DNA of 48,874 nt, from NCBI GenBank assembly GCA_002687015.1, contig NYZB01000231.1, positions 1-48,874 of the forward strand, in the 5' to 3' direction. Under the pieces are notes generated by a model. It did no database searches. It was given only the letters and a program-made list of their open reading frames with translations, and was not told the origin of the DNA. The DNA comes from Deltaproteobacteria bacterium. GTDB lineage: Bacteria; Myxococcota_A; UBA9160; UBA6930. This document shows, in pieces, positions 3,232 through 33,015 of this stretch (position 1 is the first letter of the stretch; the number at the start of each line of letters is the position of its first letter). Both the position numbers and the translations under genes were made by a program.

Positions 3232-4585
3232 TCAGGTATGCAACGATCGCCCATCCACCGCAAGCGCGGCTTCCTTGACCGCCTCGGACACCGAGGGATG
3301 AGCATGGCAGGTACGCGCGATGTCCTCGGCCGAGGCACCGAACTCGAGCGCCAGCACCGCCTCGGCGATCAGGTCGCCCGCCATCGGCCCGAGGATGTGG
3401 ACACCGAGCACGCGGTCGCTGGAGCCATCCGCCAGGATCTTCACCATCCCATCGGCATCGCCCGTGATGCGAGCCCGACTGTTCGCGGCGAAGGGAAACT
3501 TGCCGACCTGGTACTCGACGCCCTCGCGATCGAGCTCTTCCTGGGTGCGCCCGACGGAAGCCACTTCCGGCCAGGTATACACCACGCTGGGTATCCGCCC
3601 GTGGTCGACGTGGCCTTGTTGGCCGGCGAGGATCTCGACGCAGGCCACGCCTTCCTCTTCCGCCTTGTGGGCGAGCATCGGCCCCGGCACGCAATCGCCG
3701 ATCGCGAGGATCCCGGCTACCGAGGTCTGGAAGGCTCCGTCGACCTGGATGAAGCCGCCTTCGGCCCGCGCGATTCCGAGCTCGTCGAGCCCGAGGCCCT
3801 CCGTGAAGGGGCGTCGGCCCACGGCGACCAGGACCACCTCCGCCTCGAGCTCGCGGGCTTCCCCGCCCGCGGCCGGCTCGATGCGGAGCCCGACGCCCGC
3901 GGTCCCGGGTTCGGCACCGGTGACGCGGCTGCCCAGCTCGAAGCGAAGACCCTGCTTGCGCAGGATGCGCTGCGCCGCCCCGGCGATCTCGCGGTCCATG
4001 CCCGGCAGGATGTGATCCAGGATCTCCACGACGGTGACCTCGGCTCCGAGCCGGGACCACACGGAGCCCTGCTCCAGGCCGATCGCGCCCGCACCGATCA
4101 CGACGAGCCGTTCGGGCACGCGCTCCAGTTCGAGGGCTCCGGTCGAGGTGACGATGCGACGCTCGTCGATGGGCAGCCCCGGGATCGGAATCGACTCCGA
4201 GCCGGTGGCGATCAGGATGTAGCGCCCCGCCAGGGTCTCGATCGCCCCCGAGGCCTTCCTTACCTCGACCCGGCCAGGTGCGGGGATGCGGCCCGTGCCG
4301 ACGACCCGCCGGATCCCACCCTTCTATCAGGAGCGAGGCGACACCGCCCGCCAGCTTCGAGACCACCTGCTCCTTGCGAGCCAACATCGCGGGGAGGTCG
4401 AGCAGGACCTCGCCCACCTTCACCCCGTGCTCCGCCAGGCCCTGCCGGGCCTCGGCGTAGAGCTCGGAAGATTGCAGCAGGGCCTTCGAGGGAATGCAGC
4501 CCACGTTCAGGCAGGTGCCCCCCAGCGTCTCGCGTTTCTCGACGCACGCGACCTTCATGCCCAGCTCGCCGGCGAGTGCATCGAG
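3232..4585 (-). pseudogene. lpd: Dihydrolipoamide dehydrogenase remnant (5'-truncated, frameshifted)
   Basis: Frame A (about 4330-4580): LGMKVACVEKRETLGGTCLNVGCIPSKALLQSSELYAEA. Frame B (3232-about 4325): GGIRRVVGTGRIPAPGRVEV...RLVVIGAGAIGLEQGSVWSRLGAEVTVVE...AHPSVSEAVKEAA. The frame change is near 4318-4328; the N-terminal FAD-binding GxGxxG segment is absent. Confidence 0.88.
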
Positions 4586-5536
4586 CATCCCTGCACGCAG
4601 GCCCTCTACCGCGCCTACTTCCCGGAGCGCTTCCTCGATCGCTTCCCCGAGGCCGTGAGCCAGCACGCGCTTCGACGTGAAATCGCGGCCATGAGCGTCA
4701 CCAACCGATTGATCGACCTCGGCGGCGTGACCCTGATTCCCTCGTTGATGCGCGAGCTCGACGTGGAAGCCGACGAGGCGGGTCTGATCGCACTACTGGC
4801 CTCGGAGGCACTGGGCGGCTTCGACTACCGGGATGAGTTGCTCGCGAACCCCAACCTCGAGCGGGAGGAGATCTACCGCGCCTTCATCGACCTCGACACG
4901 GCAGTTCGCAGCGTCGCCCGTCTCCTCGCGCGGCGCAGTCGCGGCCACCTGGGCCCTGCCGACCTGGCGCGCTGGCGGGACTCGCTGGCCCAGGTGCGAG
5001 CGATGCGCGGCGAGCTGCCGAAGGACAACCCCTTTGCACGAGGCGAGGAGCGCGGCGCCGAGCTGCGCGCCAAGGGCTTCCCCGAGGAGCTGGCGGCCGA
5101 CGCCGCCAGCGCGCCCCTCGCCGACCTCGGGTTGAGCCTGATCGGCGTCGCCGAGCGCTCGGGTGTCTCCATCCGCGACGCGGCCTTCGCCTACGCCCAC
5201 GTGGGCGAGCACTCCGGCCTCAACTGGGTCTACGTCCGGCTCGACCGCATGCCGGTGGCCGACGCCTGGGATCGCATCGGCCTGATCCAGCTGCGCAGCT
5301 CGCTCATCGACCTCCACGATGCCCTCGCGGAGGAGATCCTCGCGGACCATCCCCGCGATCCCGAGGCGGCGGCCGCCCGCTTCCTGGCCGAGCGCTCGGT
5401 CCACGTGGAGCGGATCCGTCGTCTACAGCAACGGGCCGCCGGGGTCGATCGCCCCTCGTCGCTGTCGGTCGTGGCGCGAGCCATCGAGCGCCTCCGAGAG
5501 GAGGCGCCGGGTAGATCCGGGATCGACCTGGCCTAG
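4586..5536 (+). pseudogene. C-terminal fragment of large NAD-specific glutamate dehydrogenase (Bac_GDH family)
   Basis: LYRAYFPERFLDRFPEAVSQHALRREIAAMSVTNRLIDLGGVTLI and SLIGVAERSGVSIRDAAFAYAHVGEHSGLNWV resemble the C-terminal region of large NAD-GDHs. Upstream sequence in this frame is antisense lpd, so the 5' part is missing. Confidence 0.8.
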
Positions 5537-14253: not shown

Positions 14254-15327
14254 ATGAAGGCCGCCATTCTCACCGCACTCAACGAACCCCTGCAGATCCG
14301 CGACGATGTCGGCCTGGCCGACCTCGGCCCCGGCGAGGTGCACCTCAAGATCGTGTCGAGCGGCGTGTGTCACTCGGACCTCTCCGCGCAGAACGGCACG
14401 ATTCCGGTCGCCACTCCCTGTGTTCTCGGTCACGAGGGCGCTGGCGTCATCCAGGAAGTCGGCCCGGGCGTGACCCAGGTCAAGGCTGGCGATCCCGTGA
14501 TCCTCTCCTTCACCCCGGCGTGCCGCGAGTGCAAGAACTGCCTGCGCGGTCAGTCCTACCTCTGCGACGCCATGGTCCCCATGATGATGACCCCGCACTT
14601 CGTGATCGATGGCAACCCGGTCAGCGGCATGACGGGATGCGGCACCTTCGCCGAGGAGATGATCGTCCCGGAGTCGGCCGTCGTGAAGGTGGACGACGAC
14701 ATCCCCCTCGACATCGTGAGCCTGATCGGCTGCGGTGTGACGACGGGCGTGGGCGCCTCGATCAACACCGCCAAGGTCACCCCCGGCAGCTCGGTGGTGG
14801 TCTTCGGCGCAGGCGGCGTCGGCATCTCTGCCATCCAGGGCGCGCGCATCGCCGGCGCGGCCGAGATCCTGGCGGTCGACCTCGTGGACTCGAAGCTGAA
14901 CATGGCCAAGCAGTTCGGCGCCACCCACGTCTGCAAGCCCGACGACTTCGAGGGCATGAACCTGCAGATCACGGGCGGCGAGGGCTTCGACTACGCGCTC
15001 GAGTGCATCGGCAATCCGGTCACGATCCGGGCCACCTACGACGCCGCCCGCCGCGGCGGAACGGCGGTGGTCGTCGGCGTCGGCCGCATGGACCAGAACA
15101 TCGAGTTCACGGCCTTCGAGCTCTTCTACGCCGACAAGAACCTGCGCGGCTCGATGTACGGCAGCTCCAACGTGCGGACCTTCATGCCCAAGCTGCTGCG
15201 CCTCTGGAAGGCCGGCAAGCTCGATCTCGAGAACATGATCAGCCGCCGCATCAAGATCGACGAGGTCAACGACGCCTTCCGCGCCATGCAGGAAGGCGAA
15301 GTGATCCGCTCCGTCATCAACTTCTAG
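14254..15327 (+). CDS. Zn-dependent alcohol dehydrogenase (MDR superfamily)
   Basis: GVCHSDLSAQNGTIPVATPCVLGHEGAGVI, structural Zn cysteines CRECKNCLRGQSYLC, VVFGAGGVGISAIQGA. Confidence 0.93.
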   Translation: MKAAILTALNEPLQIRDDVGLADLGPGEVHLKIVSSGVCHSDLSAQNGTIPVATPCVLGHEGAGVIQEVGPGVTQVKAGDPVILSFTPACRECKNCLRGQSYLCDAMVPMMMTPHFVIDGNPVSGMTGCGTFAEEMIVPESAVVKVDDDIPLDIVSLIGCGVTTGVGASINTAKVTPGSSVVVFGAGGVGISAIQGARIAGAAEILAVDLVDSKLNMAKQFGATHVCKPDDFEGMNLQITGGEGFDYALECIGNPVTIRATYDAARRGGTAVVVGVGRMDQNIEFTAFELFYADKNLRGSMYGSSNVRTFMPKLLRLWKAGKLDLENMISRRIKIDEVNDAFRAMQEGEVIRSVINF

Positions 15328-15339
15328 AACCCCACCCAC

Positions 15340-15380
15340 CGAACGCTGACAAAGGGGTCCGACCCCTTTGTCAGCGTTCG
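15340..15380. repeat. 41-bp perfect palindrome, family element 1
   Basis: CGAACGCTGACAAAGGGGTC-c-GACCCCTTTGTCAGCGTTCG: 20-bp perfect arms, 1-nt spacer; right arm contains the stop codon (15371-15373) of the minus-strand CoA ligase. Confidence 0.97.
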
Positions 15381-16975
15381 ACCTTGAAGCCGGCGGCAAT
15401 GCCGTCCCAGGTCTCGGGGGTCACGCCGCGTTCGCGGAGCTTGTACTTCTGGACCCGGTTGGTCGGCGTCTGGGGAAGCTCGTCCAGGAACTCGACGTAG
15501 CGCGGCACCATGAAGTAGGGCGCGTTGTCGTTGACGAAACGGCACAGCTCTTCGGGTGTGGCCTTCTCGCCGGGCTTGAGCACGACGCAGACCTTCATCT
15601 CCGCCTCGGCTTCGAGCTCGGCCGAGACCACCCCGTGAGCGGCCGATTGCTGCACCGCCGGATGCGCGTTGATCATCGCCTCCACGTGGAAGGAGGAGAT
15701 GTTCCGGCCCTTGTAGCGGATGAAGTCCTTCTTCCGGTCGACGAAGAAGTACTCGCCGTCTTCGTCCTTCCGCATGAGGTCGCCGGCGTGGTACCAGAGG
15801 TTGCGCCAGGCAGCGACGGTGGCCTCGGGGTTCTGCCAGTAGCCGTTGAAGAGCGCGAAGGGCTCGGTGGGCCGCAGGCAGAACTCCCCCGTCTCCCCGA
15901 TCGGAACCTCCTGATCCTGGTCGTCGAGGAGCTTGATCTCGAGGCCCGGGGCGGGTTCACCCAGGGAGTTGGGCTTGTAGGTGCCGCCCGGCCGCCGGGC
16001 CAGGGCGCTCATCGCCTCGCTCTGCCCGTAGCCCTGTGAGATCTCCTCGATCCCGAAGCGCTCCTTGAACTTCGGGATGATGTCCTCGGGCATCGGCACC
16101 ATGCCCGCCAGGCGCACGGGGTTGTCCTTGTCGTCGTCCCGCTCGGGCGCGTTCCACAGGAACATGTGCATGGCGCCCAGGGTGAAGACCATGGTCGCGC
16201 CGTAGTAGCGGGTCCGGTTCCAGAAATCGCTGGCCGAGAAGTGCGGGTCCATCGCGCAGGGTACGCCGGTGACCAGGGCCCGGAACACGTTCGCCACCCA
16301 GGCCGCCGTGTGATACATGGGCAGACAGCTGTAGATCACCTCACCCTCGCGCAGGCCCGAATTCATCGCCCCGTCCAGGGCCGCGCGGATCCACACGTTG
16401 TGGTTCTGGAGCACTCCCTTCGAGCGACCGGTGGTGCCCGAAGTCCACAGGATGCAGGTCGAATCGCCGTAGTGGAGATCGGTGTCATCGGGCTCCTCGC
16501 CCTCGAGCTCGAGAAAGGCCTCGAGAGGCTCGACGGGAACGGGAAGCTCCACCTCGGGCTTGCCGCGCACCAGGACCCGCTCGAAGGGCAGCTCCCCCAG
16601 CTCGGCCACGCGCGGCAGCAGGTCGGCGTCCGCTACCAGCACCCGGGCCTTGCCGTCCTCGAAGGTCTCGCGCAGCCACGGGCCTTTGTAGTCCGTATTG
16701 GTCGGTGTCCACAGGGCACCGAGCTTGTTGACGCCCAGAGCAGAGAACACGACGTCCGAGCCGCTGCCCATGAAGAAGCTGACTGTGTCGCCTCTCTTGA
16801 TTCCCATCTCGCGGAAGCCGCGGGCGAAGCCGTTGGCCAGCTCGTTGACGCGCCCGTAGCTGTAGTGGGTCTCCCCTTCGACCAGGTAGTCGTCGTCGGG
16901 GATCGCTTCTGCCTGCCGGCGAAGGGTGCGACCCAGGAGGCGATCGGCGTTGTCGTCGAGGTCGATCCAGTGCAT
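15371..16975 (-). CDS. Acyl-CoA synthetase (AMP-binding)
   Basis: CILWTSGTTGRSKGVLQNHN, QGYGQSEAMSAL, WYHAGDLMRKDEDGEYFFVDRKKDFIRYKGRNISSFHVE. ATG at 16975 (MHWIDLDD). Confidence 0.93.
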   Translation of the reverse strand: MHWIDLDDNADRLLGRTLRRQAEAIPDDDYLVEGETHYSYGRVNELANGFARGFREMGIKRGDTVSFFMGSGSDVVFSALGVNKLGALWTPTNTDYKGPWLRETFEDGKARVLVADADLLPRVAELGELPFERVLVRGKPEVELPVPVEPLEAFLELEGEEPDDTDLHYGDSTCILWTSGTTGRSKGVLQNHNVWIRAALDGAMNSGLREGEVIYSCLPMYHTAAWVANVFRALVTGVPCAMDPHFSASDFWNRTRYYGATMVFTLGAMHMFLWNAPERDDDKDNPVRLAGMVPMPEDIIPKFKERFGIEEISQGYGQSEAMSALARRPGGTYKPNSLGEPAPGLEIKLLDDQDQEVPIGETGEFCLRPTEPFALFNGYWQNPEATVAAWRNLWYHAGDLMRKDEDGEYFFVDRKKDFIRYKGRNISSFHVEAMINAHPAVQQSAAHGVVSAELEAEAEMKVCVVLKPGEKATPEELCRFVNDNAPYFMVPRYVEFLDELPQTPTNRVQKYKLRERGVTPETWDGIAAGFKVER

Positions 16976-17055
16976 CGGGTCTCCGCTAAATGAGGGGAGC
17001 CGAGACTCTATCTGAGGCACCATCGGTCCGCTGGAGCAGCAGGGGAGGCGGCCAG

Positions 17056-19588: not shown

Positions 19589-19621
19589 GGCTCACAAAGG
19601 GGTCTGACCCCATGATGAGCC
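19589..19621. repeat. Palindromic family element 2 (imperfect)
   Basis: GGCTCAcaaaGGGGTC-t-GACCCCatgaTGAGCC: inner and outer stems pair, 4-nt internal mismatch; shares ACAAAGGGGTCnGACCCC with the other two elements and ends 1 nt from a stop codon (19623-19625). Confidence 0.85.
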
Positions 19622-19622
19622 A

Positions 19623-20123
19623 CTAGCGGTGGCGACCCGGGCGGCGCTTGCGTCGGCTCATGAGCTCGTCGATCACGCGAAGGCCCATGGGCTCCCAACG
19701 CCGGGCGAAGAGCGCGTCGGGCCGCGCATCCCGGATTCGCGCCAGCGCGAAGTCGGCATCCAGATCGTCGCGACAGGCCACGAAGTAGGCGAGCACCAGG
19801 GCGGTTCGGTCCCGGCCCATGCTGCAGTGGACCACGGTGGCTCGGCCCGCCTCGACCTGGGTTTCGAGAAAGGCCTGCGCCCCGGGGAGACGCTCGAGGC
19901 AGGTGGCCTCGGTGGCTTCGTTGGCTTCGTCGTCGGCCGGCAGCTCGACGAAGGCATGCTCGAGGCCGGCCGCCTCCAGGGCCTTTGCATCCACCTCTCG
20001 CGAGTCGAGCGAGAGCACCGCTCCGATGCCCGCCGCGGCCAGGGCCCCCGGATCCCAGGGTGCGCGATTGGGGCCGGGCCGTCCGGCGAGGAGGTCGGGG
20101 AGAATCCAGTAGAGGTGCCGCAC
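19623..20123 (-). CDS. Dual-specificity / tyrosine protein phosphatase
   Basis: Cx5R signature VVHCSMGRDRTALVLAYFVA. Confidence 0.85.
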   Translation of the reverse strand: MRHLYWILPDLLAGRPGPNRAPWDPGALAAAGIGAVLSLDSREVDAKALEAAGLEHAFVELPADDEANEATEATCLERLPGAQAFLETQVEAGRATVVHCSMGRDRTALVLAYFVACRDDLDADFALARIRDARPDALFARRWEPMGLRVIDELMSRRKRRPGRHR

Positions 20124-31658: not shown

Positions 31659-31757
31659 CTCGTACCTCTCTCGATCAGCTCGTCGCGCAAGGGATCGGAC
31701 ACGAATTCGAAGCTCCTGATGGCCACAACCGAGTCAGTCAACACACCGAAGTCTCCC

Positions 31758-31798
31758 AAGCAGTTGACAAAGGGGGCAGACCCCTTTGTCAACTGCTT
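31758..31798. repeat. 41-bp palindrome, family element 3 (19/20 arm pairs)
   Basis: AAGCAGTTGACAAAGGGGGC-a-GACCCCTTTGTCAACTGCTT; overlaps the stop codon (31798-31800) of the minus-strand CaiB gene by 1 nt. Confidence 0.95.
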
Positions 31799-33015
31799 CA
31801 GAGGACAGCGCCGCTCTCCTTGTGGCGGGCGATCTCTTCCCACTCGAGGCCCAGGTCGAGGAGCACCTCCTCGGTGTGCTGCCCGTGCTCGGGTGCGGGC
31901 TGCAGGGTGGGCGGGGTCTCGTCGAACTGCACGGGGTTCGCGACCAGCTGGAAGCTGCCGCCATCGGCTGCTTCGACCGTGGGCATGTAGCCGTTGGCTT
32001 CGACCTGGGGATCCTCGGTGGTCTCCTTCGGCGTCTGCCAGGGGGCCCAGGCGCCCTCCATCGTGTCGAGCTTCAGCTTCCACTCCTCGTAGGTGCGGCT
32101 GCGGAAGACCTCGTCGAGGATCGCGACGCAGGCCTCGCGGTTCTCGAAGCGGGCCTTCATGTCGACGAAGCGCGGGTCCTCGATCAGCTCCGGCTTGTCG
32201 ATGTGGCGACAGAAGTCGGGCCACCAGCGATCCGCCTGGAGCAGGTTGAGCATGATCCAACGCTCGTCCTTGGTCTGGTAGGAGTTCACCACCGGATTGG
32301 GCGGCGCGCCGCGTCCGCCGCCCACGAACATCTTGTCGATGCCCATCAGCTTGCTGACGACCAGGTCGGGGCCCAGGGTCCACATTGCCGTCGAGAGCAG
32401 CGAGATGTCGACCACCGAGGTCTCGCCGTGCTGGGCGCGCCGGAAGAGCGCGGCGGCGATCCCGCCCGCGATTGTCATCGCACCGATCGAATCGCCGAAG
32501 GCCGCCCGAGGGCCGACGGGCACCTCGTCACTGGGCCGGGTCAGAGCATCGCCGATGCCGCCACGCGCCCAGAAGGAGACGGCGTCGTAGCCGGCCTTCT
32601 CGGCGTGGGGGCCGCGAACACCCTGGCCGCTGCCGCGCACGTAGATGATCTCCGGGTTTCGGGCACGGATGTCCTCGAGATCGATCTGCAGCTTCTTGCG
32701 CGCCGGCGGAAGGAAGTTCGTGAGGAAGACGTCGGCGGTCTCGGCAAGGCGGTAGATGAGCTCGCGACCCTCCGGATGGGCGATGTCGATTCCAACGCTC
32801 CGCTTGCCCCGGTTCGACTGCTCCATCATGAAGTTCACACCGCCTGTGTTGGCGACCAGTCCGGAGGTCATGAGCCCGCGCTGTCCGTCGCCGGTATCGG
32901 GGTGCTCGACCTTGATGACGTCGGCGCCCCAATCGGCGAGCAGCGCGCCCGCCGCAGGCACGAACCACCACTGAGCCACCTCGAGAATCCGGACGCCACG
33001 CATGAGATCGGTCAT
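31798..33015 (-). CDS. CaiB/BaiF family CoA-transferase
   Basis: GVRILEVAQWWFVPAAGALLADWGADVIKVEHPDTGDGQR, RGKRSVGIDIAHPEGRELIYRLAETADVFLTNF, SVVDISLLSTAMW. Confidence 0.93.
   Translation of the reverse strand: MTDLMRGVRILEVAQWWFVPAAGALLADWGADVIKVEHPDTGDGQRGLMTSGLVANTGGVNFMMEQSNRGKRSVGIDIAHPEGRELIYRLAETADVFLTNFLPPARKKLQIDLEDIRARNPEIIYVRGSGQGVRGPHAEKAGYDAVSFWARGGIGDALTRPSDEVPVGPRAAFGDSIGAMTIAGGIAAALFRRAQHGETSVVDISLLSTAMWTLGPDLVVSKLMGIDKMFVGGGRGAPPNPVVNSYQTKDERWIMLNLLQADRWWPDFCRHIDKPELIEDPRFVDMKARFENREACVAILDEVFRSRTYEEWKLKLDTMEGAWAPWQTPKETTEDPQVEANGYMPTVEAADGGSFQLVANPVQFDETPPTLQPAPEHGQHTEEVLLDLGLEWEEIARHKESGAVL

Follow-up and report, generated by a model that had tools for sequence, protein, structure and literature searches.

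The DNA analysed here (the window) is a stretch of 48,874 nucleotides, positions 1 to 48,874 of contig NYZB01000231.1 in the Deltaproteobacteria bacterium assembly GCA_002687015.1. It carries three inverted repeats, elements 1 to 3, each located at the 3′ end of a minus-strand gene:

14254–15327, plus strand: Zn-dependent alcohol dehydrogenase gene, convergent with the ligase gene, its stop 12 nt from the left arm of element 1
15340–15380, no strand: element 1, a 41-nt perfect palindrome (arms 15340–15359 and 15361–15380, centre 15360)
15351–15369, no strand: family core of element 1, AAAGGGGTCCGACCCCTTT
15371–15380, minus strand: overlap of the right arm with the ligase 3′ end (C GAA CGC TGA)
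15371–17023, minus strand: AMP-forming acyl-CoA ligase gene (best NCBIfam match PRK06155, below its cut-off), with an ancestral stop
19589–19621, no strand: element 2, a degenerate copy, GGCTCACAAAGGGGTCTGACCCCATGATGAGCC
19623–20123, minus strand: gene next to element 2, its native TAG stop 1 nt outside the element
31753–31803, no strand: element 3 (arms 31753–31775 and 31781–31803, 23 nt, 91% complementary)
31798–33015, minus strand: CaiB/BaiF-type CoA-transferase gene, its native TGA directly outside the family part of element 3

An inverted-repeat check of the window found the arms of element 1 to be 100% complementary over 20 nt with a 1-nt spacer, in agreement with a preliminary description of this DNA in which the left arm, outside the gene, was called an exact inverted copy. 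Folded as single-stranded DNA, the stem has a predicted energy of −24.7 kcal/mol (z = −10.9 relative to shuffled sequences). The ligase reading frame ends in ...GFKVER*, with its stop at 15371, and its last ten nucleotides on the minus strand lie inside the right arm. This arm had been described as encoding V-E-R-stop; E, R and the stop are indeed inside it, but since the arm spans just the final 10 nt of the ligase gene the V codon is merely touched. We place the start at an ATG at 17023, while the earlier start at 16975 corresponds to Met17 and is a plausible alternative. The convergent alcohol dehydrogenase gene terminates with a stop codon at 15325–15327. Elements 2 and 3 had been said to end at, or within 1–2 nt of, a minus-strand stop, and the measured distances are 1 nt from TAG 19623–19625 for element 2 and 0 nt from TGA 31798–31800 for element 3. 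The orthologue of the gene beside element 2 in the congener G003 ends at the same alignment column, as does the CoA-transferase orthologue in the sister species G001 (SGAIL*).

All three elements are members of a dispersed family, whose 19-nt core AAAGGGGTCNGACCCCTTT has three matches in the window against 0.08 expected; allowing up to three mismatches it occurs at 25 places genome-wide whereas a reversed-pattern control yielded 0; two of the 25 matches are intragenic and may not be true family members. The outer arms around this core read approximately CRRCGYTRAC, and alignment of the copies in this genome gives an arm consensus of about CRRCGYTRACRAAGGGGTC. Four congeners have only 0–1 core matches each at up to two mismatches, and this near-absence is consistent with a recent, lineage-specific spread. 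At least 116 stretches from other genomes in many phyla, isolate genomes among them, also contain the exact core; there the outer arms around the shared core are genome-specific and the highest copy number is 96, in one 3.5-Mb genome. A search of Rfam with the repeat returned no match, and a literature search for the core sequence found no paper.

Family copies lie preferentially beside stop codons. Using approximate gene calls from a simple codon-usage caller run on the fetched stretches, we found 15 of the 25 copies within 12 nt of a gene 3′ end, compared with 5.3% of random intergenic positions (P ~1e-13), and 18 of the 25 within 25 nt, compared with 10.3%. The systematic stop-codon placement proposed earlier from the window is therefore seen genome-wide. 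In seven copies (ligase, L187, L192, L193, L195, L201 and L203) the stop, which may be TGA, TAA or TAG and is followed by C, occupies the identical arm position one base before the core. Other genomes display the same tendency, with 51% of cores within 25 nt of a 3′ end versus 23% of random non-genic positions, and in these genomes there is no enrichment of cores at gene 5′ ends.

Comparison with orthologues in congeners revealed two routes by which gene ends and repeats are joined. Either the native stop is kept with the repeat just behind it, as at elements 2 and 3 and at L191, L205, L185 and L194 (we take the L205 gene to be Lon-like and the L194 gene to be ribosomal protein L3-like), or the stop and the final residues come from the repeat, as at L187, L195, L192, L193, L196, L199 and L189. 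L187 ends in YERAKR* where its orthologue ends in FERLP* (the repeat giving AKR*), L195 ends in HRTS* where orthologues have HRTP* or HRT* (the repeat giving S*), and repeat-encoded ends are AKL* in L192, QAS* in L193 and EGV* in L196 and L199. The stops of L196, L199 and L189 are located in or beyond the core. Taken together, these loci constitute an orthologue-checked case of what appears to be a mobile hairpin that has settled at stop codons and altered the C-terminal residues of several genes. At L196 (4056–4074), L199 (3060–3078) and L189 (3044–3062) the repeat itself encodes the C-termini, either as EGV* or by read-through of the whole core.

The ligase is a mixed case, its end being ancestral and yet CGCTGAC also being the family arm consensus. 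The 81% identical ligase orthologue in G001 ends in EIER* (GAG CGC TGA C) without a palindrome after it, and the family-level orthologues in G005 (VRR*), G008 (VKR*) and G010 (VRR*) likewise lack this palindrome downstream. The alignment of orthologous ligases suggested in the preliminary description thus identifies the terminal xER-stop as ancestral, since all four orthologues end at the same column. We found no full syntenic empty site for element 1; the G001 sequence downstream of the ligase differs and so offers no clean one.

Linkage of the repeat to tyrosine transposases is observed in both related and distant genomes. In G001, a repeat with a half-site shared with element 3 (GTTGACRAAGGGGTC) flanks a RAYT-type transposase in inverted pairs, with two GTTGACGAAGGGGTCGGGTCTCTCGGTCAAC copies upstream and three inverted copies downstream, the first copy lying directly after the TGA of the upstream gene. 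The transposase frame is 265 aa long and, judged by eye, of the Y1 type, with NHVH and YVHRNP motifs. This locus (G001:C541, L253; 858–930 and 1777–1887) resembles a REPtron, having 31-nt repeats with a 37-nt period. A Y1 transposase is present in 19 of 20 other core-bearing genomes, but 5 of 14 control genomes also match, so the presence of Y1 alone is weak evidence. Exact cores occur in 6 of the 30 Y1_Tnp loci of these other core-bearing genomes compared with 0.92 expected (P = 4e-4), and at L159 (Jeotgalibacillus), L172 (Acidimicrobiales) and L179 (Planctomycetota) they lie close on both sides of the transposase gene. One short palindrome core is linked in this way to tyrosine transposases in several phyla. 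The transposases at these loci score below the cut-off of the NCBIfam REP-associated tyrosine transposase model and above that of Pfam Y1_Tnp, and the L179 protein has an additional weak match to Bac_DnaA_C (E=9.5e-4, below the Pfam cut-off), a domain described for TnpAY1 subclass 2.1.

In our 82%-complete bin a cognate transposase was not found. The three Y1 genes of this genome carry a different inverted repeat, of the GCGGCAGAG type, and the cognate enzyme is therefore not seen among them. All three proteins share the N-terminal motif GWGG(K/R)RPGAGRK; their GCGGCAGAG-type repeats are at L206 3525–3543 / 4827–4845, L207 3029–3059 / 4193–4223 and L196 about 4090, and the C256 copy stands beside a GGGGTC palindrome. 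One copy of the family palindrome, at C256:15055, is found upstream of a Y1 gene, which made that gene a candidate for the cognate enzyme. We treated the neighbourhood as coincidental because the Y1 gene's own repeat looks to be of the GCGGCAGAG type and because a HAD-type gene ends at this palindrome.

The nearest described relatives are the TIR elements of TIRYT transposases, and the palindrome is a well-preserved but essentially ordinary representative of an already known type of bacterial repeat. TIRs are partly self-complementary, occur as inverted repeats and contain a GGGGWSAS motif (Di Nocera et al. 2013, PMC3733652), and TIRYTs fall mostly in TnpAY1 subclass 2.1, with a possible C-terminal HTH (Quentin et al. 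2018, PMC6006769). Both systems have inverted repeats around Y1 transposases, as in G001, L159, L172 and L179, and moderately abundant copies dispersed beyond the transposase locus (here 25 places, control 0). On one strand of core copies with an A/T centre, GGGGTCAG fits GGGGWSAS, and element 1, with its C/G centre, is one base off the motif. The family differs from TIRs in that its palindrome is compact and almost perfect and has outer arms specific to each genome, and in having no cognate transposase visible in the bin. GTAG REPs and REPINs with their RAYTs (Nunvar et al. 2010, PMC2817692; Bertels and Rainey 2011, PMC3116915) are similar in comprising small dispersed hairpins positioned at 3′ ends and linked to a tyrosine transposase; indeed, it has been reported before that REPs lie close to gene 3′ ends, and GTAG REPs in many cases provide flanking genes with a TAG stop (PMC3733652). 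In the present family, by contrast, the stop comes from the arm TRA or the central TGA, copies number in the tens rather than hundreds, and GT[AG]G is absent from the hairpin foot, the arm consensus containing neither GTAG nor GTGG. CGTC REPs (PMC3733652) are likewise small extragenic palindromes near stops, but our family has a linked transposase in other genomes, and no CGTC tag is conserved at either end in the arm columns.

We consider it highly probable that a REP-associated tyrosine transposase of the TIRYT type spread a small, non-autonomous, REP-like hairpin of which element 1 is one copy, and that the copies persist almost only at gene 3′ ends. Such an enzyme would act on single-stranded DNA, and the copies it spread would persist almost only where they are harmless, directly at or after gene 3′ ends; we infer both that a transposase moved the present copies and that purifying selection caused their placement. 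Both hairpin arms carry TRA trinucleotides (CGYTRAC) and the centre often carries TGA (GGGGTCTGACC), so a copy landing at a gene end either lies after the native stop or supplies a new in-frame stop and last residues. At the ligase site the native end ...GAR CGC TGA C matches the arm, so that gene end and repeat share 10 nt; on this reading the whole hairpin would have been gained after ...GAGCGCTGAC. The cognate transposase of this family would be flanked by CGYTRACRAAGGGGTC repeats.

The preliminary description instead regarded the left arm as a copy of the gene end, a view that the wider family does not support: across some 25 copies, which mostly lie beside other genes, the element 1 arm CGCTGACAAAGGGGTC is the consensus, and with CGCTGAC as family consensus the ligase overlap needs no copying of gene sequence. 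Within the core, agreement between copies is as good as that between the two arms of a single copy. At arm positions 15–20 from the centre, matches within copies exceed those between copies (71 vs 53.6, p = 0.001), with elements 1 and 3, L187 and L199 contributing most, while the excess is not significant at positions 10–14 (p = 0.12) and absent at positions 21–30 (p = 0.64), all in permutation tests that ignore the relatedness of copies. The 15–20 excess fits whole-hairpin insertion, selection on pairing or occasional template-switch correction alike. Judged from these comparisons, copying of the left arm from the gene is mostly unnecessary, although the weak excess would allow for a degree of copying, or for selection acting on pairing. 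An explicit version has the ligase 3′ end template the left arm: a shorter core would have inserted after CGCTGAC, and hairpin (quasi-palindrome) template switching would then have produced the perfect 20-bp stem. Such an origin would account for the ancestral ligase end, for the 15–20 excess and for a match that runs on through CGAA, past the strongest consensus, but we regard it as improbable given the lack of a significant excess at positions 10–14 and the occurrence of CGYTRAC as consensus beside many unrelated genes; moreover, pairing selection or insertion of pre-matched hairpins yields the same excess.

Improbable as well is the proposal that C-termini are recoded and repeats come to lie at gene ends through insertion itself, and not only through later selection, with the transposase recognizing a stop-like target (approximately GYTRAC, or a site just after TAG/TGA). 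The overlap of the ligase end with the repeat could reflect a preference for such sites, and targeting of this kind, if real, would account for the tight association of REP-like repeats with gene 3′ ends. That element 1 is a bidirectional intrinsic terminator common to the alcohol dehydrogenase and ligase genes is very unlikely: a stable hairpin does stand between their convergent stops, and seven family copies lie between convergent gene ends, but a scan of element 1 found no terminator-like site and no T-run directly after the stem, only TTT after the inner stem, and it is the sequence, not just the stem, that is conserved across phyla. To chance or an assembly artefact we assign a negligible probability. 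The source is a metagenome-like draft bin (279 contigs, 82% complete, 4.47% contamination), but the reversed-pattern control (0 vs 25), the same core in many isolate genomes and the orthologous gene context in congeners all argue against it.

Related palindromes were also noted elsewhere. The congener G004 carries a related but different family, AAGGGGCCAGGCACTTT, at 25 places (e.g. L278–L287), many of its copies being less than 80 nt from contig ends; one follows a HAD-type gene whose orthologue in the present genome (L196) also ends in a repeat. In the uncultured genome CALJYC (L048, L050, L120 and L128), cores are paired at a distance of about 41 nt, each pair enclosing a GGGTTAACCC palindrome.
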